A DNA stretch of 45,699 nucleotides, taken from a virus. The notes under the pieces were generated by a model. It did not search any database. It had not been told where the DNA came from and worked only from the letters and a program-made list of their open reading frames with translations. The position numbers were made by a program, and so were the translations under genes. Of the stretch, positions 21,466 to 42,515 are shown piece by piece; the stretch's first letter is position 1, and every line of letters starts with the position of its first letter. The stretch covers positions 1 through 45,699 of IMG/VR virus record IMGVR_UViG_3300030329_001912; one strand, given 5' to 3'.

Positions 21466-21476
21466 AATCATAAATT

Positions 21477-22433: not shown

Positions 22434-22453
22434 AAAAGTGACGACTGTTGGCA

Positions 22454-22516: not shown

Positions 22517-22550
22517 AAATAATTTATAAACATAAGAGATGAGGAATTTT

Positions 22551-22724: not shown

Positions 22725-22726
22725 TT

Positions 22727-23518: not shown

Positions 23519-23589
23519 AACGTAAATCTTACGAAAGAAATAGAAAATTTGCACCTGGATTTAAACAAAAACCATTAAGGAGGAAGAAA

Positions 23590-24142: not shown

Positions 24143-24152
24143 GGAGAGTAAA

Positions 24153-24944
24153 ATGAGTCAATTAAATGATGTAATGTTCCCTGTAATAGAAGTACCTGCG
24201 ATAGGAAAATTTCCTAAAAATCCAAATTATTCAGATGAGGTTACTAAATCAACTGGATTTAAGTTTATAATGAGAGAAGATACAGGTCAAATACTTAGTT
24301 GTATGACTAATGATTATAAATTAGTAACTAATGAAACAGTATTAAAATATGCTAGTCCTATTATAAAGAAAAATGGTGGCAGAGTTAAAGAAGTAAAGTC
24401 TTTAAATGGTGGCACTAAATCTATTATGACATGGAACTTCCCTAAAGAAAAAGTTAACATTGGTAAAAACGATGACCTAACGCCTGAAATAATTATTAAG
24501 AATAGTTATGATGGAACAATAGGATTAAACATTCTTGCTGGTGCATTTAGGTTAGTATGTAGTAATGGAGCAATCGTAGGAATTGTAGCAGAAGACTATA
24601 AAAATAAACATAGTGTGTATAATGTGGCGTTAAATGATATAAAATCTGTAATAAAACAAACAATAGAGAAAACAAAAATAATCTTTAAAGATGAATTTCC
24701 AATTCTTAAAGATAATAAAATCTCTGAAAGAGATATTGTTAGTTTCTTAAAATTGTTTCCATTACAAGCAAATGAAATAGTAACGCAAAGACTAATTGCC
24801 GATAAACCTAAAACATATTGGGATTTATTTAATGTAGGAACAAACGTATTAACACATAATATGAACAGAAATACTGAATCTACTCATAATATTGAAAGTT
24901 CATTATATAATACAGTTAAGAAATGGGCTCTAGCCAGTGCCTAG
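24153..24944 (+). CDS. DUF932-family protein
   Basis: 263 aa. The segments TGFKFIMREDTGQILSCMTN, then IIIKNSYDGTIGLNILAGAF and RLVCSNGAIVGIVAEDYKNK match the DUF932 (phage/plasmid-like protein) pattern: N-S-Y/H-D-G-x-x-x-x-x...F-R-L-V-C-x-N-G. Members are common next to recombination and replication genes and are suspected to assist DNA handling, but no activity is firmly assigned. I start at 24153 because AAGGAG (24141-24146) lies just upstream; a start at 24126 would add MKQKTKESK. Confidence 0.8.
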   Translation: MSQLNDVMFPVIEVPAIGKFPKNPNYSDEVTKSTGFKFIMREDTGQILSCMTNDYKLVTNETVLKYASPIIKKNGGRVKEVKSLNGGTKSIMTWNFPKEKVNIGKNDDLTPEIIIKNSYDGTIGLNILAGAFRLVCSNGAIVGIVAEDYKNKHSVYNVALNDIKSVIKQTIEKTKIIFKDEFPILKDNKISERDIVSFLKLFPLQANEIVTQRLIADKPKTYWDLFNVGTNVLTHNMNRNTESTHNIESSLYNTVKKWALASA

Positions 24945-25767
24945 TTTAGATTGGTATGACTGTCCTATAGTAATACCTTATTATGGTGGTAAGTATGAGT
25001 TGAGCAAGATACTTGTTCCTCTCATACCCCATCATGAGAGATATTTTGAAGTCTTTTCTGGCGGTCTATCAATGTTCTTTAGAAAAGATAGAGCTAAATG
25101 GAATGTTTTAAATGACATAGATAATAATATAATAAATTTATATATGTGTGTCATAGAAAAACATGATGAACTAGTAAAAAACTTATTTTGGCTTCCCAAA
25201 TCTCGGAAATTATTCTTAGATTTCAGAGAGGAAATTAAAGTAAATAAAGAGATTGAGATACCAGACCCAGTACAAGCAGCTAAATACTTTTACTGTATTA
25301 GGTATAGTTTCAATAAATTAATACACACACCTTTTTCTATGCAAAAAGATTTGAATAAAAATTGGGATGAAGAATTGAAATATTCAAGAGAATATATTAA
25401 AGGCGCAACTATAGAAAATCTAGATTTTGAAACTTTATTTGATAAATATGAACCAAGAAAAGGAGATTATTGGTATCTTGACCCTCCATATATAGTAGCA
25501 ACAGAAAAAGGAAGTTATTATATGAACAATTTTACTATTGAAGACCACACAAGATTAAGAGATTGTGTTAACAGAATAGATAAAAATGGAGGATTATTTA
25601 TGGTAAGCTATGATTATAGAGATGAAGTAAAAGAATTGTATAAAGATTATAATATAAAAACTTTAGATTTAAAATATAGTGGAGCCACCGATAAGGCAAG
25701 AGATAAGGAAAGAAAAGAATATATAATAATGAACTATGAACCTGTATCACAGGTCGAGATGTTCTAA
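24937..25767 (+). CDS. Dam-type (D12 class) DNA adenine methylase
   Basis: 276 aa. Motif X/I: PYYGGKYELSKILVPLIPHH (about 14-33) with FEVFSGGLSMFFRK (37-50) binds S-adenosylmethionine. The catalytic DPPY is at 182-185 in YWYLDPPYI. The order of motifs and the size fit the D12/Dam group that makes N6-methyladenine. It probably protects phage DNA from host restriction or marks it for packaging. The start codon is GTG, overlapping the DUF932 stop; no upstream in-frame ATG is available. Its target site cannot be read from sequence alone. Confidence 0.9.
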   Translation: MPSLDWYDCPIVIPYYGGKYELSKILVPLIPHHERYFEVFSGGLSMFFRKDRAKWNVLNDIDNNIINLYMCVIEKHDELVKNLFWLPKSRKLFLDFREEIKVNKEIEIPDPVQAAKYFYCIRYSFNKLIHTPFSMQKDLNKNWDEELKYSREYIKGATIENLDFETLFDKYEPRKGDYWYLDPPYIVATEKGSYYMNNFTIEDHTRLRDCVNRIDKNGGLFMVSYDYRDEVKELYKDYNIKTLDLKYSGATDKARDKERKEYIIMNYEPVSQVEMF

Positions 25768-25776
25768 GGAGGAATA

Positions 25777-27117
25777 ATGAATAATGGAACTAAAGAGCAA
25801 CCTGAAGCAAAAGTACCTCCAAGTTCTGAAGAAGCTGAACAAGCTTTACTTGGATGTATCATAACAGGCGGAGAAAGAGAACAAGAAATAGGATTAGCAT
25901 GGATAAGAGATGAAAATGCTTTTTATTTTGAAGATAATAAAATTATATGGAAGGCATTTACAGAACTATATAAAGACAATATAACTATAGATTTCATTAC
26001 AATTAATGATAAAGTAAAAGATATGACTGGGAAAGGAATGGCATATTATATAACTGGATTGTCAGAATCTATACCAACTAAGGTAAATGTACAGCAGTAT
26101 GCTAAAATAGTATGGGAAAAATATATACAAAGAGAAACTGCTAAATCAGCTTATGAATTATATAATGCAAGTCATGAAAATTATAAAGAAGTAAATAATA
26201 TATTAGAGAATCATACTAAACTTGTATCAGAGCTAAGAGAAATACAACCATCTAAAGAAAGAAAAATAGAAGACCTCGTAGATGAAATGATAGAAGTTGT
26301 AGAAGAAGACACAAATTTAATACCATTTAACTTAGCACATTTAGATATGTTTGCAGGTGGAATGACTAGAAAAGAAATAACTGTTCTTGGTGGAAGGCCA
26401 GGACATGGTAAGACAACTCTTGTTATAAACATGATACGAGGTTTATTAAAGCAAGGATTTACTGTCATGTTATTCAATCGAGAAATGAGTAACACAGAAA
26501 TGTTGAAGAAGATGGTGGTTATGGAAAGTAAATCCCTAGAATACGCAAATATAAGACGAAATGACCTATCTGAGACAGATAAGAAGGAGTTTGAATCAAC
26601 ATCTAACGTAATAAAGAAAGAATATGGAAATTTATTAATGTATGATGGAGTTAGAAACCTTGAAGATTCACTAAGAGAAATAGCAAAACATAAACCAGAT
26701 GTAGTAATAGATGATTATATACAATTAATTAATGTAAGCAACGTAAGAGAAGGTAGAAGATTCGAAATTGAAAAGATAATGCAAGAATATAAATGGATAT
26801 GCAAAACAGAAAACTGTAGTGCAATATTAGTATCCCAATTAAATAGAGAAATAGAGAAAAGACTAGACCCTAGACCAAGAATGAGTGACTATGCTGAATC
26901 TGGAGTGATAGAACAAACTGCAGAGTCAGCTATGTTTGTATTTTATGGACATAATTTTGATAATGAAAGATATTCTCCATATAAAAGTGAAATAATAGTA
27001 TCTAAAAGTCGATATGGTAAAATAGGAACACATAAAGTAGGATTTAATGGCGGTAGATGTAAGTTTTATATGAACTCAGATATGGCACAAGGAGACAGTC
27101 ACAAAAATGGTGCGTGA
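25777..27117 (+). CDS. DnaB-type replicative helicase
   Basis: 446 aa. Residues about 10-110 resemble the DnaB N-terminal domain (EEAEQALLGCIITGGEREQE). The RecA-like ATPase has Walker A GGRPGHGKTT (205-214), Walker B VVIDDYIQL (309-317) and a sensor/arginine region LVSQLNREIEKR (about 351-362), followed by DYAESGVIEQTAESAM typical of DnaB helicases. It unwinds the fork on the lagging strand. There is no primase domain and no primase gene nearby, so priming, like polymerisation, is probably done by the host. AAGGAGG precedes the ATG. Confidence 0.92.
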   Translation: MNNGTKEQPEAKVPPSSEEAEQALLGCIITGGEREQEIGLAWIRDENAFYFEDNKIIWKAFTELYKDNITIDFITINDKVKDMTGKGMAYYITGLSESIPTKVNVQQYAKIVWEKYIQRETAKSAYELYNASHENYKEVNNILENHTKLVSELREIQPSKERKIEDLVDEMIEVVEEDTNLIPFNLAHLDMFAGGMTRKEITVLGGRPGHGKTTLVINMIRGLLKQGFTVMLFNREMSNTEMLKKMVVMESKSLEYANIRRNDLSETDKKEFESTSNVIKKEYGNLLMYDGVRNLEDSLREIAKHKPDVVIDDYIQLINVSNVREGRRFEIEKIMQEYKWICKTENCSAILVSQLNREIEKRLDPRPRMSDYAESGVIEQTAESAMFVFYGHNFDNERYSPYKSEIIVSKSRYGKIGTHKVGFNGGRCKFYMNSDMAQGDSHKNGA

Positions 27118-27317
27118 TTGTAGAAAGCAAAATAAAAAGCTGTAAAGGTTGTTCATTATATAAAGATGGTTACTGTCATTGGTTTGACAGACCTAAATCA
27201 GTGCCACTCGAAGTAATAAATAAAGGATGTAAATATAGAACTCCTTTATATAGTAAAATAGATACGACAAAAACAGTCGCATATGTGATTGATAAATTTG
27301 ATGGAGAGATTTGTTAA
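27114..27317 (+). CDS. Small zinc-binding protein (GTG start)
   Basis: 67 aa, starting at GTG 27114 that overlaps the helicase stop (GTGA). CKGC (about 10-13), Cys21 and a later Cys39 (KGCKY) could form one zinc site. The pattern C-x2-C-x7-C...G-C is seen in small phage zinc proteins of unknown role. Confidence 0.6.
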   Translation: MIVESKIKSCKGCSLYKDGYCHWFDRPKSVPLEVINKGCKYRTPLYSKIDTTKTVAYVIDKFDGEIC

Positions 27318-27511
27318 TGAAAAAAATAGAAAAACTTGGGAATTGGAAACATTGTCCAAGTAAAGGATGGCCGTATGAAGGAGATGCTCCAGATGACCCT
27401 GAATATTTAAAAGATAGAAATAAGATATTTAAAGAGAATGGTAATGGATGGTGGTGGCATCAAGGATTTCATGTATGGAAAAAAATAGAGAGGGAAAATA
27501 AGAGAAGATGA
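27317..27511 (+). CDS. Small Trp/Gly-rich protein
   Basis: 64 aa, MKKIEKLGNWKHCPSKGWPY..., with GNGWWWHQGFHVW, many Trp and a basic end. No family recognised. The ATG at 27317 is preferred over TTG 27311 because it forms a TAATG overlap with the upstream stop. Confidence 0.5.
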   Translation: MKKIEKLGNWKHCPSKGWPYEGDAPDDPEYLKDRNKIFKENGNGWWWHQGFHVWKKIERENKRR

Positions 27512-27625
27512 GCAAAAAAGAAGAAAGTGACCAAGTGGAGGTATAAAATATAGATATTTCTCAGAATTGACTTTTAGCTTAACTTCTGAAAGTTGAATCA
27601 AGAATAAAAAGAATTTTCGTTATAA
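27512..27625 (+). other. Short gap before the resolvase gene
   Basis: It holds a possible 12-codon ORF (MSKKEESDQVEV from ATG 27508) that is too short to call, and a small hairpin AACTT-CTGA-AAGTT (27581-27594) within repeats of TTGA/TCAA. A TTGACT (27567-27572) resembles a -35 box but has no good -10. No further feature seen. Confidence 0.35.
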
Positions 27626-28087
27626 ATGAATATAATAGGAATAGACCCAGGTAAGAGTGGCGCAATAGCCATATGGAATAAAGGCATAGACAGAATAGTC
27701 AAATGTCCTCCCAATGTAATTAAAATGGCAGATGAGATAAGAAAAATAAAAGATAAAAGAAATACAATAGCATACATAGAAAAGGTTCATGCATTTCCTA
27801 CTGATGCTAGGTCATCAGCATTTAAATTTGGAATGAACTATGGGGAATGGCTTGGAATACTAGGAGCGATGAGGATTGAAACTGTTCTAGTACCTCCACA
27901 AACATGGATGAAATACTTTAAAGATAAACTTAAAATTAAACTACCTAAAGAAAAACCTAAGAGAAAAAGAAAATTAAAAGAGATAGCATCACAATATACT
28001 GACAAGTCAGTAACATTATATAATTCAGATGCTATATTAATATCAGTATATGGATTCATTCAAGAAACAAAAAGAAAGGAGAAATGA
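27626..28087 (+). CDS. RuvC-like Holliday junction resolvase
   Basis: 153 aa. RNase H-fold motifs are present: IGIDPGKSGAIAIW with Asp7, IAYIEKVHAFP with Glu52 and LYNSDAILIS with Asp135. These match RuvC/phage resolvases that cut four-way junctions. A Lys/Arg-rich segment (about 99-118: KDKLKIKLPKEKPKRKRKLK) could bind DNA. In this phage it would resolve junctions and branched concatemers before packaging. No strong ribosome-binding site precedes the ATG. Confidence 0.85.
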   Translation: MNIIGIDPGKSGAIAIWNKGIDRIVKCPPNVIKMADEIRKIKDKRNTIAYIEKVHAFPTDARSSAFKFGMNYGEWLGILGAMRIETVLVPPQTWMKYFKDKLKIKLPKEKPKRKRKLKEIASQYTDKSVTLYNSDAILISVYGFIQETKRKEK

Positions 28088-28281
28088 TGTCCAACAAAGA
28101 ATTACAAGAACTAGATGTAGTTATACAAGCATTAGAAGCCAATCTTCAGGTATTTAAAACAATACAAAATGAATTAAATGATAAACAAAGAAAAGAAGTT
28201 TTATATCCAATGATGGTAGAGCTGAGGAATTTATGCGATGTATGTATCCCAGCTTTTAAGCCAACAGACAGTCTATCTTGA
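28084..28281 (+). CDS. Small helical protein, last early gene
   Basis: 65 aa, MMSNKELQELDVVIQALEAN..., a coiled-coil-like sequence ending CIPAFKPTDSLS. The last gene of the early block. Its stop codon overlaps the end of the opposite late gene by nine bases. Start overlaps the resolvase stop as ATGA. Confidence 0.65.
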   Translation: MMSNKELQELDVVIQALEANLQVFKTIQNELNDKQRKEVLYPMMVELRNLCDVCIPAFKPTDSLS

Positions 28282-31077
28282 CTGTTCCAATCTCTTTAAT
28301 GCTTGCTCAATCTCTGGAGGGAGAATTTGTTTCCTAACTTTAGCAACCTTTTTCTGAGCTTTTCTAGCTTCAGCTGTAGGATATAATCCAAATTCAGACT
28401 GGATAGCCCATCCTATTCTACCTTGTTTAAGTTGTGGGATGTGTCTTTCAAATGTTCTACCAGCAAATGTATTTAAGATGCGAATCTTTTTAGTTACATC
28501 ACTTGATTGTGCATATGGGTCGTATTGTTCTAAACCAGTGATGAGAGTTAATAAACTTTGTTCATCTAAATCTACTAAATCTAACATCATACCTATCTCA
28601 AGTATGTCTGATGTGATTGGGCCTCCAAAGGTAGATATGAGTGGCCCCTTACCATAAAATGCTTCTTGCACTTGTTCTTCATCTCCGAGCATCAAAGTAG
28701 ACCACTGCTTTAACCTTTGTGCAGTATCATGTTCTACAATATTGCTCCAGTCTACACCACTATAGACAGATGCAAGGACAGGTGCCAAGAAGTAAAGAAA
28801 AGACATTCTATATGCTTGAGCTAATCCTTGAGCATCCTTGCCTGGCATTAACTTACCAGATAAAACATCATATTTAGATTCTCTAAGTATCTTCTGATTC
28901 CTTTCAAAGAACTCAAAAGTATAATGTTGGAACTGACCAAGAAATCTACCTACTTTACTTCTTAAAGCTGGAGACTTTGCATAATCAGCATAATCAAAAT
29001 GATTCATTACAACCATCCTTATTGCATAGTTTTCTGCAGCTCTCCTAATAGCGGCATCAGCTTGAGCGGATGACTTTCCTTCTTCAGCTAATTTAGCTCT
29101 GTAATCTGATGTATTTAAATTCTTATGTAATTGTGCATATGCAACTCTAAATGTATGTTTTCTATTAGAGTTCTCAGCTTTTCTATGAAGCCAAGATGAT
29201 TTACCAGCTACAGTAGATATACCATCTGCAACTTTTTCAATTCTAGATTTCTTTACAGCTTCAAATTTTCCTGTACCATCATTCCATTCAATAATTTTAA
29301 AAGCAGAAGCTGGAGCTTTTAATTGACTTTCTAAATATTCAGGAGATACTTCTTCAAATAATAATCCATTCTTCTTTAGTACATTATCAATATAGTTTTC
29401 TCCCTGTACATCTCCAACTTTTCCTAAACTAATAGTCTTTAAATAATCTTTGGAATTTTTTACTTGCACAGGCCCCCAAGTTACATAATCTAATAGTCTC
29501 TGAAACCAGTTCCTAGCGCCAGCCCTTGGATTATAACCTAACTTCGAAATAAATTCAAATCCTAATACACTTCTCATCCATGCTCTTGTTTTGTTACTAA
29601 TATTAGGGTCACCATTTGTTGCTCTATGCATATCAGATATATAATCCACTAAATTCTGAGCATATCCTTTAGCTCCTCCTTCTGTTTTATATATACGTTC
29701 AACTGATGTAAGTCCATCAAGCATATAACTATCCATAAAAGATATATAATTAAATCTATTCACATCACTAACATAATTATTTACAGAATTAAAGAAGTTT
29801 CTACTATAGTCATATCCAAATTTAGCTGTTGCTCTATCTTTTACTTGAGGTTTAGCATGACCATCAATCCAAAAACTCATATCTTGTACTATCTCTCTAA
29901 TGCTTTTGCCTTTTTCTTTACCATGACTATTAGATGCTAATTGTAAATTATCAAAACTCTCCATTAACTTATTCATAAATGGAGCATTTAAATCTCTAAC
30001 ATAATGAGGGAAAAATCCTTCTTCATAGTTTGGAGAGTACTTCTCTCTCATTTTAGTTTTTATATCATTTAATGCAGCTTCATCATTTGGGTCTAACTTA
30101 CCTAAATATTTCATCCTATCAATAACTGAATCAATTCTTTTATTAACACCATTTCTAAGTGTATAGTACATTCTATCCATAAGCTCAACATATGATGTAA
30201 TAGCGCTCCTCATTTCATTAGTTAATCGAGAGCCATCTGGCATCCTAATGTACATACCAATATCATTACTATCTAATTTTAATGTAGCATCTCCTTTAAC
30301 TATATCACCTAGTAATTTTGCTTTACTTTTATTAAGTACTTTTTGCTTACCTTTTTTAGTAGTTGTATAAGCTTCTTTTTTTAATTGTTCAAATTTTTGT
30401 TTAAGACCATCTCTCATTCCTATCTCTATCATAGTAATCATATCATCATATACTTGTAAATGACTTTTCTGAGTAAGAGTATCAATTTGTCTTTTTATAT
30501 CCAACATCTTTTCATTAGCTGCTTGTCTACCTGCCATATCATTATTCTTTTCAGCAGTTTTATAATCAGCCATGGCTTGTATCCATTGTTCGTCTAATCT
30601 AAATGATTCTTTTTCAGCTCTTGACATACTAGATTTTTGGAATCCTCTATTAATAGCTTCCGCTCTTAAATCAGAATGTATACCTTTAATTAATGTTCTA
30701 TCTTGTACTTCATTTGCATGAAATTTAAATTGTGAAGCTTGCATATCATTTAATAGATTACCAACTACAGGGTCTTTTGCCCCATAATGAGAACTTTGAT
30801 ACATAAATTTAGCAAAGCTATTATCAAGGTCTCCTCCTTTAACCTTAGTAGTTAGCTCAGTTAACCTTGCTAGATAAGATTTAACTTGACCTTCCGTTAA
30901 GTCTTTAGCATATCTTAAATGTTTTAATTCCATATTGAAATTAGTCTTGATAAGCTTCATAGCAGCTTCATGAGGGTCATTAAATATTTTCTTTGTTCTT
31001 TCTGATTCAGCCCAAAGTTGAATACCAGATGTTAAAGCTCTGAAATTTTTAGATAGAAGACCGCAATTAGTAGCCAA
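28273..31077 (-). CDS. Large ejection-type internal virion protein
   Basis: 934 aa. Long alpha-helical, charged protein typical of phage internal proteins ejected with DNA, such as T7 gp15/gp16 or large polyvalent proteins. The C-terminal third includes AAENYAIRMVVMNHFDYADY, then KSPALRSKVGRFLGQFQHYT: a segment resembling the C-terminal 'A-Y/D-x-x-x-x-S-P-x-x-x-x-x-x-x-x-Q-F' motif of large polyvalent proteins. One hydrophobic stretch (MSFLYFLAPVLASVYSG) could insert into membrane. It is the last gene of the late block and immediately follows the giant gene. Enzymatic function not visible. Confidence 0.7.
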   Translation of the reverse strand: MATNCGLLSKNFRALTSGIQLWAESERTKKIFNDPHEAAMKLIKTNFNMELKHLRYAKDLTEGQVKSYLARLTELTTKVKGGDLDNSFAKFMYQSSHYGAKDPVVGNLLNDMQASQFKFHANEVQDRTLIKGIHSDLRAEAINRGFQKSSMSRAEKESFRLDEQWIQAMADYKTAEKNNDMAGRQAANEKMLDIKRQIDTLTQKSHLQVYDDMITMIEIGMRDGLKQKFEQLKKEAYTTTKKGKQKVLNKSKAKLLGDIVKGDATLKLDSNDIGMYIRMPDGSRLTNEMRSAITSYVELMDRMYYTLRNGVNKRIDSVIDRMKYLGKLDPNDEAALNDIKTKMREKYSPNYEEGFFPHYVRDLNAPFMNKLMESFDNLQLASNSHGKEKGKSIREIVQDMSFWIDGHAKPQVKDRATAKFGYDYSRNFFNSVNNYVSDVNRFNYISFMDSYMLDGLTSVERIYKTEGGAKGYAQNLVDYISDMHRATNGDPNISNKTRAWMRSVLGFEFISKLGYNPRAGARNWFQRLLDYVTWGPVQVKNSKDYLKTISLGKVGDVQGENYIDNVLKKNGLLFEEVSPEYLESQLKAPASAFKIIEWNDGTGKFEAVKKSRIEKVADGISTVAGKSSWLHRKAENSNRKHTFRVAYAQLHKNLNTSDYRAKLAEEGKSSAQADAAIRRAAENYAIRMVVMNHFDYADYAKSPALRSKVGRFLGQFQHYTFEFFERNQKILRESKYDVLSGKLMPGKDAQGLAQAYRMSFLYFLAPVLASVYSGVDWSNIVEHDTAQRLKQWSTLMLGDEEQVQEAFYGKGPLISTFGGPITSDILEIGMMLDLVDLDEQSLLTLITGLEQYDPYAQSSDVTKKIRILNTFAGRTFERHIPQLKQGRIGWAIQSEFGLYPTAEARKAQKKVAKVRKQILPPEIEQALKRLEQSR

Positions 31078-31089: not shown

Positions 31090-34000
31090 TTAGCAATTAA
31101 GAATCTCTTGAAATTCTGCCTTAGATTCAGACATATTTGGATTCAAATTGTTCTTGATTTCTCGTATTGATTCATGCATATCTTTTAATTCTCTTAACTT
31201 TTCAACATTAAACTGAGGAGTTCTCTCTAAAGATACACCTCTTTCATAATATTTACTACCACCCATTAAAGTATACACAGGACTATTTACTATACTCTCA
31301 GCAATTGGATTACCTTTTGCTAACTCTTTCTTTAATCTTCCTCCTATAAATATATCACCAGCAATTTGTCTTACTTCAGCATCAATATTTTGTCTTAATG
31401 ATAAGTATTTCATTGGGTCTATTATATTATTACCCATCATCTCAGCATCCATTACACTCATCTTCTCTAGATAAGAATCAAACTGACCTTCTTTACCAGC
31501 TAGTCTCATTACATTCCTATAGAAATCTATTAAATGGTCATTCATTAATCCAAATCCACTTGACATTCTATTAGAATCTCTTTGCCATTGTACTGACCTA
31601 AAGTCACTAAACAATCTTGTAAAGTCTTGATTAAAATCTGGAAGTCTTAAATGATTATACATTACCATTTTACCTGCTTTACCTATTGCACCTACATCTA
31701 AAAAGTCTCCCACTTCTTCACCAACTAACCATCTTTGGTCTACTCTTTTATTAAAGAATCTTGAAAAAGTAGATTCAATAAACTGTATTTGCTGTAATGA
31801 ACTTTTTGCTAGCTGTTGATTTTGAGCAACATCTTCAACAGTTTTTTGTGTTCCAGATGCAATCTCTGTAAGCAATCTAATACCCCTTCTATACTTAGAA
31901 GATGGGTCAAAGGTTTCAGTTGATTGATAAGGTACACTAACAGGTCTATTGTTAAATACACCAACCGCTTTCTTGTTCTGAGCAGGTTGCATAAATGAAT
32001 AAAGGAATGTAGGCCCATGTCTTTCATATCCTTCCATCAACAACTTCGTTTCTAATTGATAGAAAGTATTAAGGTCTGGGAATTTATTTATTAAATCTAT
32101 TTCTTGATTTGTTAGTAATGTCTTACCTCCAAACCTCATAAACTCTTTTAATCCAGTCCGATTTCCATAGAATAATCTTCTTATTTTCCGAATAAAATTT
32201 AAATCTTTTTTAGCAGTTGGACTTAACGACCATCCTCCCGGCAACATATTCTTAACATTTTCTAATGTTGCATAATAAATAGTACCATCAATCACATTCT
32301 TATCATCAGCAAATACTAATTCTATTTTATCTAAATCTTTTCCTTTTCTAGATTTTAAATATTCTTTAGGTAAGAAATCATATCCCATTTCTTTTTCTAA
32401 TTTAGTAATTAGTTTATTAAGCTTATCAATTGACTTCTGTTTAGCATCCCATCTTAACTTGCTATTTAAAATAGTGCCTATCTTTTTCTTTAAATTAGCA
32501 ACCAACTGTGCTTTACGATTATAATCTTGTAATCCTTTTTTAACTCCTCTAGTCAATCTATCAGCTGCAGTTTCAAGTTTATCTACTGATACTCCAGCTT
32601 CTATTGCTGACATACCTTCTCCACCGCCAAGTAATTCATTATACCATTGGTCAATTAATTCAGCAGTTCTAGTACCAACTGTCCTTGTAGTTGTTGCTCT
32701 AAATGGGTCAGCGTTATAAAATTGCCACAATATTCTATCTACTGGGGCTCCTCTTTCACCTCTAGCAAATTCTAAAGCATTTAGAGTTACATTTGGGTGT
32801 AAAATATTTTTTTCTGGTTGCCAATATCTCTGTTTTTTACCTTGAGCATCTTTAAATGTTTTTCCCTCTCTATCTACCCCAAAGTATTCATTAAAATCTT
32901 TATCACGCTTCCACGGCGTTTCTTCTTTTCCTTCATTACTACCCCATTTATTTCTTAATCTATAATAAAGACTCTTATTAATTGTCTTGTTAAAATTAAA
33001 GAATGATTCAGAGCCTGATATTACATCAGTGTATTCAGATTTTCTTTGTTCTCCAGTCTTTTCATAAACAGAATCATTAGTAACATTTAAAAGTTTACTA
33101 TATTCAGATAGTAATTGATTAAGAATTGCTCTATCTAACTGAGTTAAGTCTACTTCATTAAGACCTTCTGGAGTTCTAACAATCTTTCTAAAAATCCTTA
33201 CTCTATTACCATCAGAATTTCCTTTTGACCTTAAATCATTTATAAAACCTGCTTGATTTCTTCCTTTCATTTCATTAGGAACAACAGAATTATCCATACG
33301 AGGAAACATAAAATCTGGTCTCCAACTATAAATATCACTTGTAATATCTGGATTAAGTCTACCAGTTGCATCTAATATTAATTGAGTTTCTAAGGCAGCT
33401 CTTTGGAAATAATCTTTATTTTGATAATCCATAACTATCATAAAGTTTTGACCTTCGTTGCCACCTATTAAAATCTTAGCATCTTCTGTAAATCTTACAT
33501 TAGGTCTCTCTTGATTAAATCTTTCTACAAACGCATCTCCTTTTGCATCTACTCCTAATTTATCTCCATATCCTAACATTCTAGGAACTTTCTGAACAAG
33601 ACCAATACTTTTTTTATACACATTAGCATTAGCCATCATTTCATTCTTAGCTCTAGCTGCTTCTGTAGCATTCATACCTAAGTTATATGATATAGGTTTT
33701 TTATACATATCTGGATTAATTCCTTGTACAAAAAACTTAGAAGCTCTTCCAACATGCTCCCACATAGAAGGTCTATGAGCAAAAAAGAAATCTGCTTTAT
33801 CAAAATCATAATCTCCTTCTGCTACATTAGCAACATCCATAGAATTAACTACTACCGCATTACCATATGTCTTTTCTAAGAAACCTTTTAAAGCATACAA
33901 TCCAAAATCATTAGGTCTTGTTCTTGGATTTCTTCTAATCATTACACCAATACTAACATCATCTGGATAATATCCTTCGGATTTTAAAGATTCAAAATAT

Positions 34001-37000
34001 TGATGAAATGTACCTAAAGTCTGTGTACCAACTTTTTGCCAATCTTTAAAGAAAATTTTATCTCTATATTCAGGCGATACTAATTCATTCATAGCTTTAG
34101 TATCTAATACTTCTCCATTTCTAACAAATCTAATTCTATAACCTAGGTCATGTAATTCACTAAAACTTAAATCAGCTGCATAAGATGGTATCATAGCTTC
34201 ACCTTGCATTTGTACTTTTCCATCTCTGTCAACAAGTGTAGGTCTAAGTCTTTTACTTATCTCTGGTATCTGAATAATAGGAGCTTGCCCTCCATATCTA
34301 TGTGAATCTTCTGCATTATATTGATTGGTAGCAGACTTCAACCCATTTATAACATTATCAATATATATATTATATAATTTATTCTTTACCATTCTATCAC
34401 TATAGCTCATAGGATTAGCATCTGGAGATAAAGCTGAATAAATAGCCATGTTACTTACTGTCTTCATTCCTTCCCCAGCTTGTAAATCAGCTACTAAAGC
34501 ATCATCTCCAAGAGTTCTTAACATCCATCTATTTAAAGTAATTGGGTCTTGCATTACTTCAGCCATCTTTTCAATATTAGATTCAAGTATACCTGCGAAC
34601 TCTCTATCGAACATAAGTTTAGATTCAGCGTTATTCATAAAGTTAGCATCAGCCTGAGACTTTTTTGCTAATACAAAATCTGCATCTTTATTAGGCATTA
34701 GACCTACTGATTCTATTGATATCTTTCTAATCTTTTCAGATGTAAGTCTTTGATTGTTTAAATTTTCCCAACCAGTATTAATTAAACTAGCATCTTCCAT
34801 CCCTGGTTCACCAACACGATTATGAACTTTTGCTCCAGTTTTAGTAATCAATATATCAACTGCTTTATTTCCTTTAAAGAATCCATCTAATGATTCACTA
34901 TATACAAATAATGTTTTACCTAATAACAATGGAGATTCAGGGCCACCAGATGATATAACTGGTTTAATTGGATTAAAAGAAAGTGGGTCATGCCCCATTA
35001 AAGCGTGATATGCTCTCATCGTATCTCTTGATATAAATGCAATACTATCAAATGCAGATACATCTTCATGAGCTCTTCCAATAACAGTATCCCAATCCCA
35101 CTTAATCCTCTCCTTATCTACAAGAATTTTTACTTCATCTTTTATCTTAGCGTACTCAGCATCATTCCAAATAGCAACTCCGAATCCATCATTATTAATA
35201 ATTCTTCTCAATGCTCTAGCTGTATCTTTATCTCGTCTTCTTGTTGTAATCCCCTCTGGGTCTGCGCCAAACATATAAACATCAGCAACATCTTTTATAA
35301 ATGATTTATTATATCTTACATATTTTTTAGTATTAAATAATTTTATTCTTGATAATGTTTTCTCAGCATCTACTCCATTAACAAAACTCATAAACGCTCT
35401 ATCACCATCAGAACCAGTAAGCATTTGTTTTGCAACTAAATAAGTCATCATCTGTTCATACTCGGCTGGAGTCATTGGCTCATTTTTATCAATCTTTCTT
35501 TCTAGTTCTTCTAGCTGTTTTGTAGCTTGAGGGTCTATACCTTCTTTATTCTTATATTCAGTTATAAATTCTTTCCAAGGTTCTTTAAGTCTAGGTAAAT
35601 CTTTAGCTGCAACAACTATAGGGTCTGCACCAGGAGCAAGATTCATTAACCTTAATCCTCTCTCACCATCCTTACCTTCTAAATGCCAAATACCATCTTC
35701 AGGTTTAAATACAGAAGTCTCTTGTTCTATACTAGCTATAAACTCTGATTTATGTTTTCTTATCTCATCTTTTAATTTTCGACTTATTACAGTTGCATCA
35801 TCAAATATATTTATCTGTTTGTCTATATAATACTTTCCATTAGCAGACATTTCAGTTATATTCATTCTTCCGTCAACTATCATATAAGGAATTTCTAACC
35901 CATCAGTTAAATATTCATGTAATCTTGTTAACTGTATTACTTCTGGTGTCTTTTGGTAGTCACCATTTTTATAACTTAAAACATTGACATTTATTTGAGC
36001 TCTTTGAGAACCTAAAAGACCAATTAAATCTTCTCTTATTTGAGGAAGTCTTTCTCTTTGCTCTGAATCACTTAAGCTTCTATATCTTTTCCAATCATTA
36101 TCTACTTTTACATCAATTCTATCTAATACTTTTCGAACTGCATTTGTATCTAATACTCTAGTTTCTGTTCCAGTGCCAGGAACATATACTAATGATTCAA
36201 AGTTTGAATACTTAGTTGCTGAATCAAGATTTGTTACATCCTTACCATCAATTCTATACCTTTCATAAAAAGTATTTAAATCAATATGTTTAACTTGTCC
36301 TCTTTCAGTAGAGTCCTCAATAAAATTATCTCTAGCCTTTTGCTCAAGAATCTCATATCTTTCTTTAGCATATTCTGGAGTATATCCAAAGGTAGACATT
36401 TTCTTTTCCATCTGCATTTTTAATAAATCAGTAAACTTTTCTACATCAACATCATAATCTCTTTGATTCTCTTTAGGCTTAATTACACCAGCTTCCCCTA
36501 ACCATTGTAGAACATTAAGCTCATTACCTGGTCTTGAGTTCAAGAAATCCTTTAACTGTTGTCTAAAAGATGCATATCCTCTTTTCTGAGTAGATAGTAA
36601 TGACATAAATTCAGAAAGTGTTGACTTAGCAGCCATTGAAGATTCACCTTGAATCTGAATACTTCTATCTAAGGCTTCCATGTATGTTCTATCGAGAACA
36701 GTTATTCTATCTGCATCTTCTACAACAAGACCTTTACTATCCTCAATAATTCTTCTCATTGTCTTATTATAGTCACTTGCCATTTCTATAACTACTGATT
36801 CTGGATGTCCTTTCATCCTTGCTTCATCTATTAGTTTAACTCTAAACCCTGCAGCCTTACCTTCTGCAGCTGCTTCAAACTTAACTGCCCCAGTTCCAGA
36901 TAGATTAAACAATGCATCTACTTGATTTAATTTTAAATCTGTACCTTTAATTCTTTCTTGAAAAGCATAATTAACTAATTGAGACTGTAACCAAGGTTGC

Positions 37001-39711
37001 ATAGAATCAATATTAAGTTTCATATTATTAAAATAATTTCTTAACGCTTCTACTTTACCATGTGATACTTCTATAGGATTATTTGGGTCTACTTCATACC
37101 CTCTATATCCACCAACTGCAGATTGTAATGTTAATACTCTACTTAAAAATCTTATATCTCTAGCAGTTGTTTCTGAATCAGCTCCTGTAACTTTTACTTT
37201 AGGTCTTCCATTCTCAGAAGTAATCGCATCAACTACAAGAGCTTCACTTATATTTCCTGGGCTATATAAAACACCAGCATCAACAAGCAATCCTATAAGC
37301 CTATCTCTGTCTGCATAGTCCCTTTTAAATATTGATGTAGCTTCTTCACTAACTCTTATACCATGATTACGCTGAAGAAGACCTATATAATCTCTAAAAG
37401 AATCTGCTATGCTAAATGGTTCAGCCATCGGAGAATTGTCTGGAAATTGTCTTTCTACATTACGTTCAAAAGAAGAAACTCTTTCATATATTTGCTTGAA
37501 TAAAGATTCTGAATTAATATCTTTCTTAGGAGCAACTGGATTTACTTCAGCATAATTTAATAAATTAACTGTTGCCAAAGCTGAGTTAAAACTATCTGAC
37601 TTTTCATATAATAAATCTAATGCTTCTTCACCTTTTAAAACTTCTCCCTTTGCATTTACTAACCATGTTAATTCACCATCTATTGCTTTTTGTTTTATTT
37701 CTTCCCCTATTGTAATCTTCTGAGGTATTATTAATCTTCTACTACCATCCTTTGTGTTAGATTCTACTGAAATACCAAGTATATTCTGAGGGTCTTCTAT
37801 TGTTTCAATAAGATGTTTAAATGATTCTTCAAAATTCTTCTGAGTTTTAAGAAATGTTCTTTCTAATGCTTCTTCACTTCCTATAGTAGTTTCAAATCTT
37901 TTGTCTGCTTTTAATATTAAATCACCAATTGTCTTAGCATCTTCTTTAGATATATTATCTAATGGCTTTGTCCATGTCTTTAATCCTTTCATATATGAAT
38001 ACATTCTATTAAAAACTGGATTAGAACCTTCTGCTGTAGCTGCGCTTACCACATCAGGTGTTAATTCAACAGATGCAACTTCATTTGAATCAGTAATAAT
38101 TTCTAATTCTTCTAACTTCTGTCTAACTTCAGCAAACTTAGCATCTAGAAATGGATTCTCAAATCTACTTTGTTTAAACTCCCAAGTAGGAATTGCAGAA
38201 AATCTCTCAGGGCTTATACCAAGAACTGTAAGATTCTGTCTTAACTGATTCATTTGTTTATGGTCAAGGTCAAACTTAGCAGGATTAGAACGTCTTTGCA
38301 CATAAGCACCAATCAAGAAACTTGGCAATACATCATTAACATCTGGTTCTAAATCATGAGCATATGTATCATAAAATGTATGAGCATTAAAGAATAATCC
38401 ACCTAACATCATCCTTCTCCAGTTTGCACCTATATTAGCAAGCTCTTGTTTAGATGCCCACTTCATCATATCACGACCAAATTGTCCACGCCTTTGCTCT
38501 AGCATCCTAACCATAGCTCTATTAGCATCTTTACCCCAAACCTTTTCTACATCATCAAATATACTTTCAGAACTAAGGTTTACTTTACTTGTCTTTCCTT
38601 TAAATGTATGAGTAACTATAGAAGATTGACCATTTGCTTCAGCTAATCCTCCTAATAATGAAGACCTTTTAATTAACTGCTCTCTTGTCATATCATCAAA
38701 TGCGCCTTTTCTTTGGAAAGTAGCTTTCAATCCTGCCATAAAATCTGGTTTAAATGCAGCTGCTTTACCTCTAGGTTTCAACCAACTAAGCTGTCCAAAC
38801 AATGCACCAGTTCCAGCTCCCCACAATGGAGCAGTCCAATCAAAATTCTTATCTTCTACCATTGATACACCTTCAAATATTGTATCAATTGAACCAAACA
38901 TTACAGCATCGTCTATGCTATGACCTATTACTTTTGCTAATCTTGGATTAGTTTCAGCCAATCCTCTTAGTTTCATTAATCCTTTAAAATCTTGCAGAGG
39001 TCTTTTGAATACATTATTTGCAAACATATCTCTTACAGCTTGAGCTTGAGTAGCATCTAATACACCATCATCTAATCCTCGTTGTACATATTCTTCTAAA
39101 TATTCTTTTGCAACTCTACTAAATTCTGCTCCTTGAAGTTTAGGGTCTACAGCTGCTTGTCTAGCAAGAGTTCTATATCCTTTAGTAACTTCTTTTACTG
39201 CTCCTCTAGAAAGACCTCCTTCAAGACCTCTTTCTTTCATCCCCTTTACTACTTGTTCTACACTTTCTTTACCAGCTTCTTTTAATTGTTTTCTTGCTAG
39301 TGTACCAAATCCTTTATGTAGAATTTTAGCACCAACTTTTAATGGAGCACCTGCAACGAATCCTGCGAATCCACCAATAGCTCCAGTCCATTTAGCAACA
39401 GGGTCTTCATATTCTAAATACTTTTCTTCTTCTACAAGAGCACCAGGTACTCCAAACAATGCAGTATCAACAAAACTCCATAGACCAACACCGACAGCAT
39501 TCATTAAACCAGCTTCTGGAGAATCCTCTACTGATGGTTGATACCATTCTGGGTACTCATCTGCACCCATTACATCCCAAATATTTCCTTGTTGTTGTGG
39601 AGCTGCTATAGGAGATATAGCAGTTGTAGCTGCGGTATCACTTATTCCTAATGATTCACGAGCTTGTTGTCTATATTTATTATAATACTTATCGAAATTG
39701 CTTTGAGGCAT
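31090..39711 (-). CDS. Giant virion protein, possible single-chain RNA polymerase
   Basis: 2,873 aa. Residues 71-92 and 107-125 are glycine/alanine-rich hydrophobic segments (GLWSFVDTALFGVPGAL; WTGAIGGFAGFVAGA), as in ejected proteins that pass membranes. The middle contains VMIRRNPRTRPNDFGLYALK, then NAVVVNSMDVANVAEGDYDF-DK, with DYDFD at 1967-1971. This layout recalls the beta-prime segment NRxPT...AI...NADFDGD of RNA polymerases. Upstream, GKTLFVYSESLDGFFKGNKA and DILITKTGAK place lysines at 1599 and 1628, as expected for the partner double-psi barrel of YonO/QDE-1/crAss-like single-chain enzymes. The glycine of DxDGD is replaced by Phe. Alternatively this is a large polyvalent ejection protein with no polymerase. 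It is about 19% of the genome. Confidence 0.6.
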   Translation of the reverse strand: MPQSNFDKYYNKYRQQARESLGISDTAATTAISPIAAPQQQGNIWDVMGADEYPEWYQPSVEDSPEAGLMNAVGVGLWSFVDTALFGVPGALVEEEKYLEYEDPVAKWTGAIGGFAGFVAGAPLKVGAKILHKGFGTLARKQLKEAGKESVEQVVKGMKERGLEGGLSRGAVKEVTKGYRTLARQAAVDPKLQGAEFSRVAKEYLEEYVQRGLDDGVLDATQAQAVRDMFANNVFKRPLQDFKGLMKLRGLAETNPRLAKVIGHSIDDAVMFGSIDTIFEGVSMVEDKNFDWTAPLWGAGTGALFGQLSWLKPRGKAAAFKPDFMAGLKATFQRKGAFDDMTREQLIKRSSLLGGLAEANGQSSIVTHTFKGKTSKVNLSSESIFDDVEKVWGKDANRAMVRMLEQRRGQFGRDMMKWASKQELANIGANWRRMMLGGLFFNAHTFYDTYAHDLEPDVNDVLPSFLIGAYVQRRSNPAKFDLDHKQMNQLRQNLTVLGISPERFSAIPTWEFKQSRFENPFLDAKFAEVRQKLEELEIITDSNEVASVELTPDVVSAATAEGSNPVFNRMYSYMKGLKTWTKPLDNISKEDAKTIGDLILKADKRFETTIGSEEALERTFLKTQKNFEESFKHLIETIEDPQNILGISVESNTKDGSRRLIIPQKITIGEEIKQKAIDGELTWLVNAKGEVLKGEEALDLLYEKSDSFNSALATVNLLNYAEVNPVAPKKDINSESLFKQIYERVSSFERNVERQFPDNSPMAEPFSIADSFRDYIGLLQRNHGIRVSEEATSIFKRDYADRDRLIGLLVDAGVLYSPGNISEALVVDAITSENGRPKVKVTGADSETTARDIRFLSRVLTLQSAVGGYRGYEVDPNNPIEVSHGKVEALRNYFNNMKLNIDSMQPWLQSQLVNYAFQERIKGTDLKLNQVDALFNLSGTGAVKFEAAAEGKAAGFRVKLIDEARMKGHPESVVIEMASDYNKTMRRIIEDSKGLVVEDADRITVLDRTYMEALDRSIQIQGESSMAAKSTLSEFMSLLSTQKRGYASFRQQLKDFLNSRPGNELNVLQWLGEAGVIKPKENQRDYDVDVEKFTDLLKMQMEKKMSTFGYTPEYAKERYEILEQKARDNFIEDSTERGQVKHIDLNTFYERYRIDGKDVTNLDSATKYSNFESLVYVPGTGTETRVLDTNAVRKVLDRIDVKVDNDWKRYRSLSDSEQRERLPQIREDLIGLLGSQRAQINVNVLSYKNGDYQKTPEVIQLTRLHEYLTDGLEIPYMIVDGRMNITEMSANGKYYIDKQINIFDDATVISRKLKDEIRKHKSEFIASIEQETSVFKPEDGIWHLEGKDGERGLRLMNLAPGADPIVVAAKDLPRLKEPWKEFITEYKNKEGIDPQATKQLEELERKIDKNEPMTPAEYEQMMTYLVAKQMLTGSDGDRAFMSFVNGVDAEKTLSRIKLFNTKKYVRYNKSFIKDVADVYMFGADPEGITTRRRDKDTARALRRIINNDGFGVAIWNDAEYAKIKDEVKILVDKERIKWDWDTVIGRAHEDVSAFDSIAFISRDTMRAYHALMGHDPLSFNPIKPVISSGGPESPLLLGKTLFVYSESLDGFFKGNKAVDILITKTGAKVHNRVGEPGMEDASLINTGWENLNNQRLTSEKIRKISIESVGLMPNKDADFVLAKKSQADANFMNNAESKLMFDREFAGILESNIEKMAEVMQDPITLNRWMLRTLGDDALVADLQAGEGMKTVSNMAIYSALSPDANPMSYSDRMVKNKLYNIYIDNVINGLKSATNQYNAEDSHRYGGQAPIIQIPEISKRLRPTLVDRDGKVQMQGEAMIPSYAADLSFSELHDLGYRIRFVRNGEVLDTKAMNELVSPEYRDKIFFKDWQKVGTQTLGTFHQYFESLKSEGYYPDDVSIGVMIRRNPRTRPNDFGLYALKGFLEKTYGNAVVVNSMDVANVAEGDYDFDKADFFFAHRPSMWEHVGRASKFFVQGINPDMYKKPISYNLGMNATEAARAKNEMMANANVYKKSIGLVQKVPRMLGYGDKLGVDAKGDAFVERFNQERPNVRFTEDAKILIGGNEGQNFMIVMDYQNKDYFQRAALETQLILDATGRLNPDITSDIYSWRPDFMFPRMDNSVVPNEMKGRNQAGFINDLRSKGNSDGNRVRIFRKIVRTPEGLNEVDLTQLDRAILNQLLSEYSKLLNVTNDSVYEKTGEQRKSEYTDVISGSESFFNFNKTINKSLYYRLRNKWGSNEGKEETPWKRDKDFNEYFGVDREGKTFKDAQGKKQRYWQPEKNILHPNVTLNALEFARGERGAPVDRILWQFYNADPFRATTTRTVGTRTAELIDQWYNELLGGGEGMSAIEAGVSVDKLETAADRLTRGVKKGLQDYNRKAQLVANLKKKIGTILNSKLRWDAKQKSIDKLNKLITKLEKEMGYDFLPKEYLKSRKGKDLDKIELVFADDKNVIDGTIYYATLENVKNMLPGGWSLSPTAKKDLNFIRKIRRLFYGNRTGLKEFMRFGGKTLLTNQEIDLINKFPDLNTFYQLETKLLMEGYERHGPTFLYSFMQPAQNKKAVGVFNNRPVSVPYQSTETFDPSSKYRRGIRLLTEIASGTQKTVEDVAQNQQLAKSSLQQIQFIESTFSRFFNKRVDQRWLVGEEVGDFLDVGAIGKAGKMVMYNHLRLPDFNQDFTRLFSDFRSVQWQRDSNRMSSGFGLMNDHLIDFYRNVMRLAGKEGQFDSYLEKMSVMDAEMMGNNIIDPMKYLSLRQNIDAEVRQIAGDIFIGGRLKKELAKGNPIAESIVNSPVYTLMGGSKYYERGVSLERTPQFNVEKLRELKDMHESIREIKNNLNPNMSESKAEFQEILNC

Positions 39712-40916
39712 TATCTCATCCTGCCAGGAATAAGACCCTGTCTTCTTCTTGCTCTTTCTTGCTGATACCTTTTAATATCTTCAATAGGAATACCAGTTAA
39801 TTCAGAAGTTCTTTCTAATTCTTCATCAATCCTTTCTTGTTCCATTTCTTGTCTCATACCTAAGACAGCTTGGTTACGTTGTATTTTTTGTTCTGTAAGA
39901 ACCCTTTTTAGTTTTATAAATTCAGGCATACCAGAGAGACCAGCTTTTCTATAAGCCTCTACTTTTTCTTCCGTATCATCAATTTTACTATCCATATCTT
40001 CTTGAAATTCACCAGTAGAATCATACAAATCTAATCTTAATTGCTTAATAACACTTGGTAATGCTAGATATTCTTCCATTTCATCTTCAGTTGCAACTCC
40101 AGCATTTGTTTTCTTTTCTAAAGATTCATACTTAAGTCTAGCCTTATCTAAAGCATCTCTTGTTTCTGCAACAGACACAGAAGATGGGGGAGGTGGAGGA
40201 GGAGGTGGAGGTTTAATATCCATTACAGTCTCTGGAATATCTGCATAAATACCTATAGGGCTTTGTATTTCATAATCTCCTTGTAAGAACTCAGAATATT
40301 CTTTACTAATATTAGCTTCAGATATTTTTGCTTTCTTAGCTAATTGAGATATTCCTGACAATTCTGCAGTTGCTCCTAGTCTTTTAAATGCCTCAAACAT
40401 TTTCTTTTGTTTATTAGTAGCTGTTCCTTCATTAATAGCCATAGAAGCATCATATAAACTACTTGCCATATTAACCATAGTTTCAGCATCTTTAGCATTA
40501 TAATAATTAAATACTGCTCCAGCTATTTCATTTGCTTGTTCATCATATCCTTTGCCCATTTGTTTTCTAAGAGCTTTTGCCATATCAGTAATTGCATCAT
40601 CGGCCATTTCACCTTCTTCTATCTCTTGATAATATCTGAATATACCAGTTGACTCCCCAAAAGCTGAAGCAATCTTTGGCTTTTCAGTTTCTAATAATTT
40701 TAAAGATGTTTGTAAATTAGATTGAGTTAATGCAATATCTTGCATCCTTTTGGTTTGAGCAAATTGTTGTTCTTGAAGCGTAGCTCTTCTCGCAGATTCT
40801 TCTTTTGAAGCTGCTAACTGCATCATAGCAAGAGCAGTATCAACTTTACTTTGCTCTCTACGTTCACCACTTCTTAATATTTCTGTGATTGACCTTAATA
40901 CATTTCCATTAGCCAT
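39711..40916 (-). CDS. Coiled-coil virion protein with polyproline tract
   Basis: 401 aa. Long coiled coils (about 1-90 and 240-390) flank a polyproline tract of nine prolines (PPPPPPPPPSS, about 240). Such helical proteins with proline hinges are typical of internal virion components that form a tube with gp14-16-like partners. The stop overlaps the giant gene's start as TAATG, so the two are made together. No catalytic motif seen. Confidence 0.65.
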   Translation of the reverse strand: MANGNVLRSITEILRSGERREQSKVDTALAMMQLAASKEESARRATLQEQQFAQTKRMQDIALTQSNLQTSLKLLETEKPKIASAFGESTGIFRYYQEIEEGEMADDAITDMAKALRKQMGKGYDEQANEIAGAVFNYYNAKDAETMVNMASSLYDASMAINEGTATNKQKKMFEAFKRLGATAELSGISQLAKKAKISEANISKEYSEFLQGDYEIQSPIGIYADIPETVMDIKPPPPPPPPPSSVSVAETRDALDKARLKYESLEKKTNAGVATEDEMEEYLALPSVIKQLRLDLYDSTGEFQEDMDSKIDDTEEKVEAYRKAGLSGMPEFIKLKRVLTEQKIQRNQAVLGMRQEMEQERIDEELERTSELTGIPIEDIKRYQQERARRRQGLIPGRMR

Positions 40917-40938
40917 AACTATACTCTACTATCCATAA

Positions 40939-41718
40939 TTAACCAAAGACCGCTCTTCCTAATTTCCCAATATTCTTACCTAAATACCAAGAGCCTCTTC
41001 TCTTTTCAGCGGCTCTTCTAGTTGCCTCTAATTTACCTTTTTCTGTTTCTAACCTTGCCATTTCTGATTCATACTTACCTTCTATTTCGCCCATCCTCTT
41101 TCCTAAGTCTCCTAATAAACTATCACCTTTCATGCTCCATCTATCTCTTATTCTATTCCAAGCAAGAGATGATTGTTCCTCAACACTTCCAGCTTTTACA
41201 AGATTGCTTTGTTGTAATGCTTTTGCAGTTCCTTGAAATAAATCTTCTTTTTGCATTCCAGTCTTAAAAGATTCAGTTTCTACAGCTTGTCCATAATCAG
41301 CCATAACAGCAGCTCTACCTTTTGTAGTAGATTGTTCAAGTCTTTGTATAGCATCTTCAATACTTTTTAGGCCTACATCAGCAGTATCTCTTTCAGATTC
41401 AGCTTGCAACTCCCCTGACCTACCTGATTTATATCCACTTATAGCTCCAATAGCAGTTCCAGCTGCAGCCCAGAAAGCAGGATTTGCTAAAAAAGCCCAC
41501 TTTTCCTCTAATCCAGTCTCTGGATTTGTTGTTCCAGAACCAATAGCATCTACCATTCTTTCACCTTCCATACCATACATATCCATTAAAGATTTCTCTT
41601 GTGGATTTACATGCCACAATTCACCTGTTGATGTACGAGCTATTTCTGTATCACCATATCTACCTTTCGCAGCTAACTTTGAAAGATGATTATTTGCCAT
41701 TGTTCCTTTTATCGCCAT
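40939..41718 (-). CDS. Internal virion protein with membrane segment
   Basis: 259 aa. WAFLANPAFWAAAGTAIGAI (about 94-113), followed by SGYKSGRSGELQAES, forms a small-residue-rich hydrophobic segment followed by long helices, like T7 gp14-type or P22 gp7-type ejected proteins that insert into the outer membrane. The C-terminal helix is basic (EATRRAAEKRRGSWYLGKNI). Adjacent genes encode other helical virion proteins. The start overlaps the next upstream gene by 10 bases; MAIKGTM or a later Met may be used. Confidence 0.65.
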   Translation of the reverse strand: MAIKGTMANNHLSKLAAKGRYGDTEIARTSTGELWHVNPQEKSLMDMYGMEGERMVDAIGSGTTNPETGLEEKWAFLANPAFWAAAGTAIGAISGYKSGRSGELQAESERDTADVGLKSIEDAIQRLEQSTTKGRAAVMADYGQAVETESFKTGMQKEDLFQGTAKALQQSNLVKAGSVEEQSSLAWNRIRDRWSMKGDSLLGDLGKRMGEIEGKYESEMARLETEKGKLEATRRAAEKRRGSWYLGKNIGKLGRAVFG

Positions 41719-42515
41719 TTCTTTAAATTTTCATCCCATCCAAGTTGTTTCGCAGCTTTCATTAATTCTGATTGCCCAGAAGCCCAGTCTGCATATAGAG
41801 GGACTTGATTCCTTTGTTTAAATCCTTGCGCAGATTTAGTAAAATCAAACCCTGTAGTAGTTGTTCCTTTGCCAGGTGTAGTAGTCTTTTGTTGCGCAGG
41901 TTTTGGAGGAGCAGTTGGAGGTACTATTGGAGATTGAGCTCCAGTGGCCTCACTATATAAACTTGTTTTAAATGCTTCTATTTTAGGAACCATTCCAATC
42001 TTTGAAAATTGACTAATCCCCATTACATCTGATTTTTTAAAAGCAAACCCTACTTCATCTCCACCAAATCTATATAAAGGCTTTTCCCATAACTTTTCTA
42101 ATGTGTTATAAGTATCCCATTGTTTACCAGCAGCTCCAACTTTTACAGGTTTAAACTTTGAAATCCAATCAGATTGAGAACTCTTATCTAATTCTTCCCA
42201 AGTAGAAGCTCCCTCAACTCCTTCAATTGATTTTAAATATTCTTGTCTTGCAATCTCTTTTTGCACCGCAGGTAAATCTGATGTTTCAAATTCTTCTTGA
42301 GCTTGTTTTCCTCCAAAGTATTGAGCTCCAAGTTCAGTAGCTGCAGTTAATGTATCTAAAGTCTCTCCAATCCTTTGTTGCTCAAACGCTAAGTCCTCTC
42401 TACTTTGTCCAATCTCATCCCATATCCCACCAATAGCAGCTTTTGAAGCTTCATATTCACCAGCAGATTCACCAGCTTCGAAATAAACATCATATATTGA
42501 TTTGCCGTTTGCCAT
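41709..42515 (-). CDS. Virion protein with Pro/Thr-rich linker
   Basis: 268 aa. The N-terminal helical part (YDVYFEAGESAGEYEASKAA) is followed by a compact middle and a Pro/Thr/Lys linker (PPTAPPKPAQQKTTTPGKGT, about 198-217). The C-terminus has short aromatic motifs (YADWASGQSELMKAAKQLGW). Possibly an internal head or tail-tip protein. No family recognised. It lies between the small nozzle-adjacent gene and the membrane-segment protein. Confidence 0.6.
   Translation of the reverse strand: MANGKSIYDVYFEAGESAGEYEASKAAIGGIWDEIGQSREDLAFEQQRIGETLDTLTAATELGAQYFGGKQAQEEFETSDLPAVQKEIARQEYLKSIEGVEGASTWEELDKSSQSDWISKFKPVKVGAAGKQWDTYNTLEKLWEKPLYRFGGDEVGFAFKKSDVMGISQFSKIGMVPKIEAFKTSLYSEATGAQSPIVPPTAPPKPAQQKTTTPGKGTTTTGFDFTKSAQGFKQRNQVPLYADWASGQSELMKAAKQLGWDENLKKWR

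Follow-up and report, generated by a model that had tools for sequence, protein, structure and literature searches.

A giant protein of uncultured marine phages very probably contains a divergent crAss-type single-chain RNA polymerase

The window analysed here, a 45,699-nt stretch of viral DNA taken in its entirety, carries on its minus strand an uninterrupted ATG-to-stop frame of 2,873 codons, and the question it raises is what so large a phage protein does. A preliminary description had proposed a divergent YonO/crAss-like single-chain RNA polymerase that is carried in the virion and ejected with the DNA. Two-barrel RNA polymerases bear lysines on a beta-like barrel, and R.P and DxDxD motifs on a beta-prime-like barrel; cellular enzymes have DxDGD, the glycine lying at the position that matches residue 1970 of the giant protein, and SPbeta YonO is a single-chain two-barrel RNA polymerase with DxDGD. 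The strings on which the proposal was built (RRxPRTxxN, AVVVN, DYDFD and two lysines) are indeed present: RRNPRTRPN begins at residue 1926 and AVVVN at 1952, DYDFD occupies 1967–1971, and residues 1599 and 1628 are lysines, 368 and 339 residues N-terminal to D1967, respectively. The parts of the gene are as follows.

31090–39711, minus strand: giant protein of 2,873 aa with the putative RNA polymerase module (open frame, homologues in more than 40 contigs, dN/dS 0.245)
32362–35694, minus strand: predicted single-chain two-barrel RNA polymerase core, residues 1340–2450 (AlphaFold, Foldseek, hhalign)
34819–34965, minus strand: beta-like barrel segment KPVISSGG..SPLLLGKTLFVY...VDIL...GAK, residues 1583–1631 (invariant K1599 and K1628)
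34915–34917, minus strand: codon of K1599 (Lys in 45 of 45 sequences)
34828–34830, minus strand: codon of K1628 (Lys in 45 of 45; pairs with the crAss-type VKVG lysine)
33778–33954, minus strand: beta-prime-like barrel segment RxPRTRPND...GN...VNSxDVxNxxEGDYDxDKAD, residues 1920–1978 (conservation; local hhalign E 7e-6)
33799–33813, minus strand: DYDFD, residues 1967–1971, predicted Mg2+-binding catalytic loop (all three Asp in 45 of 45)
33556–33669, minus strand: predicted 38-residue helix, residues 2015–2052, a candidate bridge helix (secondary structure of the model)
35695–39711, minus strand: N-terminal part, residues 1–1339, presumed to act in packaging and ejection
31093–32361, minus strand: C-terminal part, residues 2451–2873 (conserved between homologues)

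Compared singly with Pfam, PHROGs and the PDB (phmmer), or by tblastn with 50,697 annotated phage records, the giant protein has no meaningful match; in particular, a Pfam/PHROG scan of residues 1–1339 gave none, and no known match was found for residues 2451–2873. Its relatives are in IMG/VR. A 91% identical copy is present in contig L001, and 565 stretches encode relatives of the phage's large terminase subunit (TerL); the best 80 of these 565 (at least 84% identity) were kept, and their full records yielded two more giant proteins, one in G006 with 41% identity and a very remote one in G012. Iterated alignment-based searches for the giant protein raised the number of loci to 16 and then to 54, and a non-redundant set of 45 sequences from marine viral contigs, this phage included and down to about 16% identity, was used to measure conservation. 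The homologues are about 2,750–2,960 aa long. Pfam and PHROG scans of all 44 family members found no family match, hmmsearch of the PDB with profiles from three alignments (A4, A5 and A6) returned only weak matches at chance level, such as caspase-7, and two scans of GTDB genomes for the giant protein found no host-borne copy. The divergent homologues in L164 and L166 have AEADYDIDK in place of EGDYDxDK and a different context around the first lysine (KVGEGVLLGKTAIL); they may be a sub-branch of the family.

Only fourteen of the 2,873 positions never vary among the 45 sequences, and all of them fall within residues 1583–1971 (K1583, P1584, K1599, T1600, K1628, G1837, P1929, D1935, F1944, G1950, D1959, D1967, D1969 and D1971), so the motifs picked out in the preliminary description are kept far above chance; R1927 is arginine in all but one sequence (44/45). 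Conservation peaks in the blocks 1501–1700 and 1901–2000, and the gene is under purifying selection, with a dN/dS against the L001 homologue of 0.245 overall and 0.086 in residues 1581–1700. Position 1970, the fourth residue of DxDxD, is Ala in 22 sequences, Val in 10, Ile in 9, Phe in 2 and Tyr in 2, and Gly in none of the 45. At the same place the crAss-type enzyme phi14:2 gp66 reads DFDID and eight homologues of it have Val or Ile (DFDVD/DFDID). The preliminary description had treated the phenylalanine of this phage as an exceptional replacement of the DxDGD glycine, and this has to be given up: Phe is a minor variant, and a residue other than glycine is the rule both in the giant-protein family and in the crAss-type enzymes. 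The bulky residue might be read as the mark of a catalytically dead relic, in which the barrels persist within an ejection protein and make no RNA, but none of the 45 sequences has lost any of the three aspartates or either lysine, and crAss-type enzymes have Val or Ile at this place, the phi14:2 one being functional (PMC7886860); such a relic is very improbable. The 45 diverse sequences also provide material for the study of single-chain RNA polymerase evolution and of how the DxDxD loop accommodates Ala, Val, Ile, Phe or Tyr where Gly is usual.

The nearest relatives become visible when profiles are compared. A 44-sequence profile of residues 1340–2450 (A6) was aligned by hhalign with one of eight crAss-type enzymes (A8: phi14:2 gp66, six others from Crassvirales and that of Flavobacterium phage Fpv20), giving E 6e-6 over 395 columns and 2.9e-7 in the reverse direction. 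The real pair scores 61–71.5, column-shuffled targets at most 27 (40 trials) and the reversed one 20, and the barrel alone, aligned locally with the crAss-type profile, gives E 7e-6. In the A6–A8 alignment DYDFD lies opposite DFDID and the GAK lysine 1628 opposite the VKVG lysine of the crAss-type enzymes, FDSIAFIS is paired with TDAQxYIT and NPIKPV with QPxKP, and K1599 misses by one residue the lysine that is invariant in the crAss-type enzymes. Similarity to gp96 of phage P23-45 is not significant (E 0.26–0.37), nor is that to SPbeta YonO (E 0.81, a weak test with a single YonO sequence). The crAss-like half of the original "YonO/crAss-like" label is therefore borne out, and YonO is not the nearest relative. 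Fpv20 (L178), whose crAss-type polymerase has DYDID, has a taxonomy line in which Crassvirales is not named, so the crAss-type enzyme already has a carrier outside Crassvirales as classified.

The predicted fold leads to the same enzyme. An AlphaFold model of residues 1340–2450 built with 44 sequences has a pLDDT of 81.9 and a pTM of 0.79, and its best Foldseek match among 350,542 PDB chains is 6vr4, the virion RNA polymerase gp66 of phi14:2 (E 2.8e-9, probability 1.00). The other 49 of the 50 PDB matches listed are all two-barrel RNA polymerases, of phage, bacterial, archaeal or eukaryotic origin, at E 6e-3 and weaker. The preliminary description had named a structure without two double-psi barrels as its refutation, and the predicted fold does not refute it. 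The TM-scores to 6vr4 over the full chain are low (0.33/0.19) and the second-best match reaches only E 6e-3, so large parts of the two differ. An earlier model from 14 sequences was poor (pLDDT 60) and still ranked 6vr4 first. A 38-residue helix (model residues 676–713) follows DxDxD at a place that fits the bridge helix. Among predicted viral proteins (BFVD), two unnamed entries match the model best, A0A516M3R5 at E 2e-57 (23% identity, TM 0.72) and A0A516L9L2 at 1e-36 (17% identity, TM 0.65), and are apparently members of the same family already deposited without a name; proteins of crAss-like phages rank after them, from about 3e-11.

Two other explanations can be weighed at this point. The first is a chance likeness, in which the giant protein is a tail or ejection protein unrelated to polymerases and only its short motifs recall them. 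Short acidic strings do arise by chance, and a DxDxD string alone means little: the protein has another match to D-[YF]-D-x-D, DYDVD near residue 1085, that the 41% identical homologue has not kept; conservation, profile and fold, however, agree on the same residues and on the same nearest relative, and we reject chance likeness as having a negligible probability. The second is that the two-barrel enzyme makes a different product, as an RNA-templated or primer-making polymerase (QDE-1-like) or a PolD-like DNA polymerase. The crAss-like RNA polymerase and the eukaryotic RNA-interference polymerases are structurally related (PMC10770324, PMC7886860), and plant RDR2 was among the matches of the 14-sequence model, but the nearest relative by both profile and fold is the DNA-dependent phi14:2 enzyme and DNA polymerases are absent among the 50 best PDB matches, which makes a different product very improbable. 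That the giant protein is a polymerase of this kind is very probable. By the chemistry of that family, D1967, D1969 and D1971 on the beta-prime-like barrel would hold Mg2+, and K1599 and K1628 on the beta-like barrel would contact the RNA 3' end and the incoming NTP.

Single-chain two-barrel virion polymerases are already known as a kind. The giant protein resembles phi14:2 gp66 (6vr4) in being a single chain with the beta-like lysines followed by R.P and DxDxD in the same order, in having a residue other than glycine within DxDxD and in being encoded by the last gene or genes of the structural block. It differs in that identity in the fold alignment is only about 11%, in that the middle residue of DxDxD is mostly Ala, with some Phe or Tyr, and in that its parts outside the core are unrelated. 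In P23-45, a Thermus phage, gp96 is likewise a two-barrel polymerase within a giant virion protein, with a similar RNP...NAVVVN...DxDxD string, and is a precedent for the role proposed here (PMC10770324); unlike the protein described here, it has the canonical DFDGD and is fused to the tape measure protein. SPbeta YonO, by contrast, does not lie within a giant structural-block protein, and the multisubunit phage enzymes (phiKZ, AR9) and cellular beta-prime share the catalytic barrel fold and make up the remainder of the PDB matches listed, at E 6e-3 and weaker, but have their barrels on separate chains.

For the proposed packaging of the polymerase in the virion, the following features of the genomic context are relevant.

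1217–13081, minus strand: late block with SU10-type capsid, P22-type portal, TerL and small terminase subunit (Pfam PF17236, PF16510 and PF03592; TerL by tblastn to annotated terminases)
13687–28281, plus strand: block with DnaB, PD-(D/E)XK nuclease and Dam-type methylase, presumed early/middle genes
39711–42515, minus strand: three ORFs (401, 259 and 268 aa) of the late block directly upstream of the giant gene, presumed virion proteins (position, conservation)
28273–31077, minus strand: 934-aa ORF directly downstream of the giant gene, presumed virion/ejection protein (ORF list)

The giant gene lies at the downstream end of the minus-strand structural block. The three upstream ORFs are beside it also in L001, G006 and G012, and it is followed by a homologue of the 934-aa ORF in L001, and in G006 and G012 by ORFs that correspond in position. 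The major capsid protein (MCP) matches SU10_MCP and the portal P22_portal, whereas the phi14:2 MCP matches Crass_capsid, and BLASTP of TerL, MCP and portal against phi14:2 found no similarity; by these markers the phage is not a crassvirus, and membership in Crassvirales is rejected, the non-crassvirus capsid, portal and terminase being established for this one phage of the group. The N- and C-terminal parts of the giant protein have no similarity to phi14:2 gp66–gp71. Since neither these parts nor the phage markers are those of phi14:2, the shared part is a polymerase module in a different chassis. A T7/N4-type enzyme is rejected because PF00940 (T7-type RNA polymerase) has no match in the contig or in 13 relatives (T7 positive control, 9.9e-110), and as far as tested the earlier claim that no other RNA polymerase gene is present stands.

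Phage phi14:2 carries its enzyme in the virion; the polymerase enters the host together with the DNA and transcribes early genes (PMC7886860). Its gene, gp66, is annotated from virion mass spectrometry and ends the structural block there as well. From this precedent and from the position of the gene we infer that the giant protein would be made late and packaged in the virion, would enter the cell with the DNA and would transcribe the plus-strand early block, the host enzyme not being needed initially; the unrelated parts on either side of the core, some 1,340 N-terminal and 420 C-terminal residues, may serve packaging and ejection. Homology to a polymerase in itself says nothing about packaging, and P23-45 has both virion and non-virion enzymes of this fold (PMC10770324), so the same two-barrel polymerase could instead be made in the cell and transcribe middle or late genes, like P23-45 gp64 and SPbeta YonO. 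Against this, the gene is in the structural block and not among the replication genes, and some 1,760 additional residues are joined to the polymerase, an arrangement seen in virion-borne enzymes, while the non-virion YonO has only 840 codons; a non-virion enzyme is unlikely, though the least improbable of the alternatives. For the whole chain of the preferred reading, in which residues ~1340–2450 form a single-chain two-barrel polymerase belonging with phi14:2 gp66 to the crAss-type clade, and the protein is packaged in the virion and transcribes early genes, we estimate a probability of roughly 0.78. If it is virion-borne, small ocean phages begin transcription without the host enzyme.

The giant protein and its homologues form a family of crAss-type single-chain RNA polymerases that is new and unannotated, in an uncultured marine phage group, and in the open-access literature no description of the family, its phage group or its chassis was found. 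Single-chain virion polymerases of the crAss type have diverged so far that sequence libraries miss them. The present family, recognised by neither Pfam nor PHROGs, occurs in over 40 distinct contigs of a phage group that, by its number of TerL relatives in IMG/VR, is abundant in public viromes.

In the TerL-related lineage G025 (L093:3-7595) and in L182 a different giant protein occupies the corresponding late position. It has a GHKL ATPase domain (Pfam HATPase_c_3, 5e-12), an HExxH motif, GRWPVY...WIHPESAIGNLQADHDGD and a canonical DxDGD motif, QADHDGD; hhalign to the G025-type protein is not significant (E 0.04–0.15), with the motif in register. As a lead from sequence, it is possibly another polymerase in the same slot. 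Within one TerL-related group the same late position is taken by the crAss-type enzyme with DYD[A/V/I/F/Y]D, by a very distant DFDVD form (G012) or by the GHKL-domain protein. Tentatively, and with the odds somewhat against it, injectable two-barrel RNA polymerases may be a common exchangeable module of ocean phages (contigs mostly ~40–56 kb) that has repeatedly been acquired, replaced or diverged beyond recognition; if so, early transcription without help from the host would be widespread among ocean phages.

The genome had been thought apparently complete, which it is not. The leftmost ORF (1–1119) is truncated, both contig ends (1–1119 and 42834–45699) cut late genes, and in the 54-kb relative G006 about 8 kb of tail genes lie between the homologues of the two end ORFs; the contig lacks this stretch of tail and fibre genes between its ends, and G012 has it as well. 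A promoter search in the early block found no repeated element, and sigma-70-like sites are not in excess over shuffled sequences. Two terminator-like G+C-rich hairpins with T runs (13590–13603 and 13949–13965) lie on either side of the first plus-strand ORF, where the two gene blocks diverge, and both GC skew and AT skew change sign exactly at the switches in gene orientation (12–15 kb and 27–30 kb). A tRNA-Met is called at 14670–14743, and its T-arm sequence GAGGTTCGAATCCTC is repeated 87 bases downstream (14806–14825), where it is possibly part of a degenerate or unusual second tRNA.
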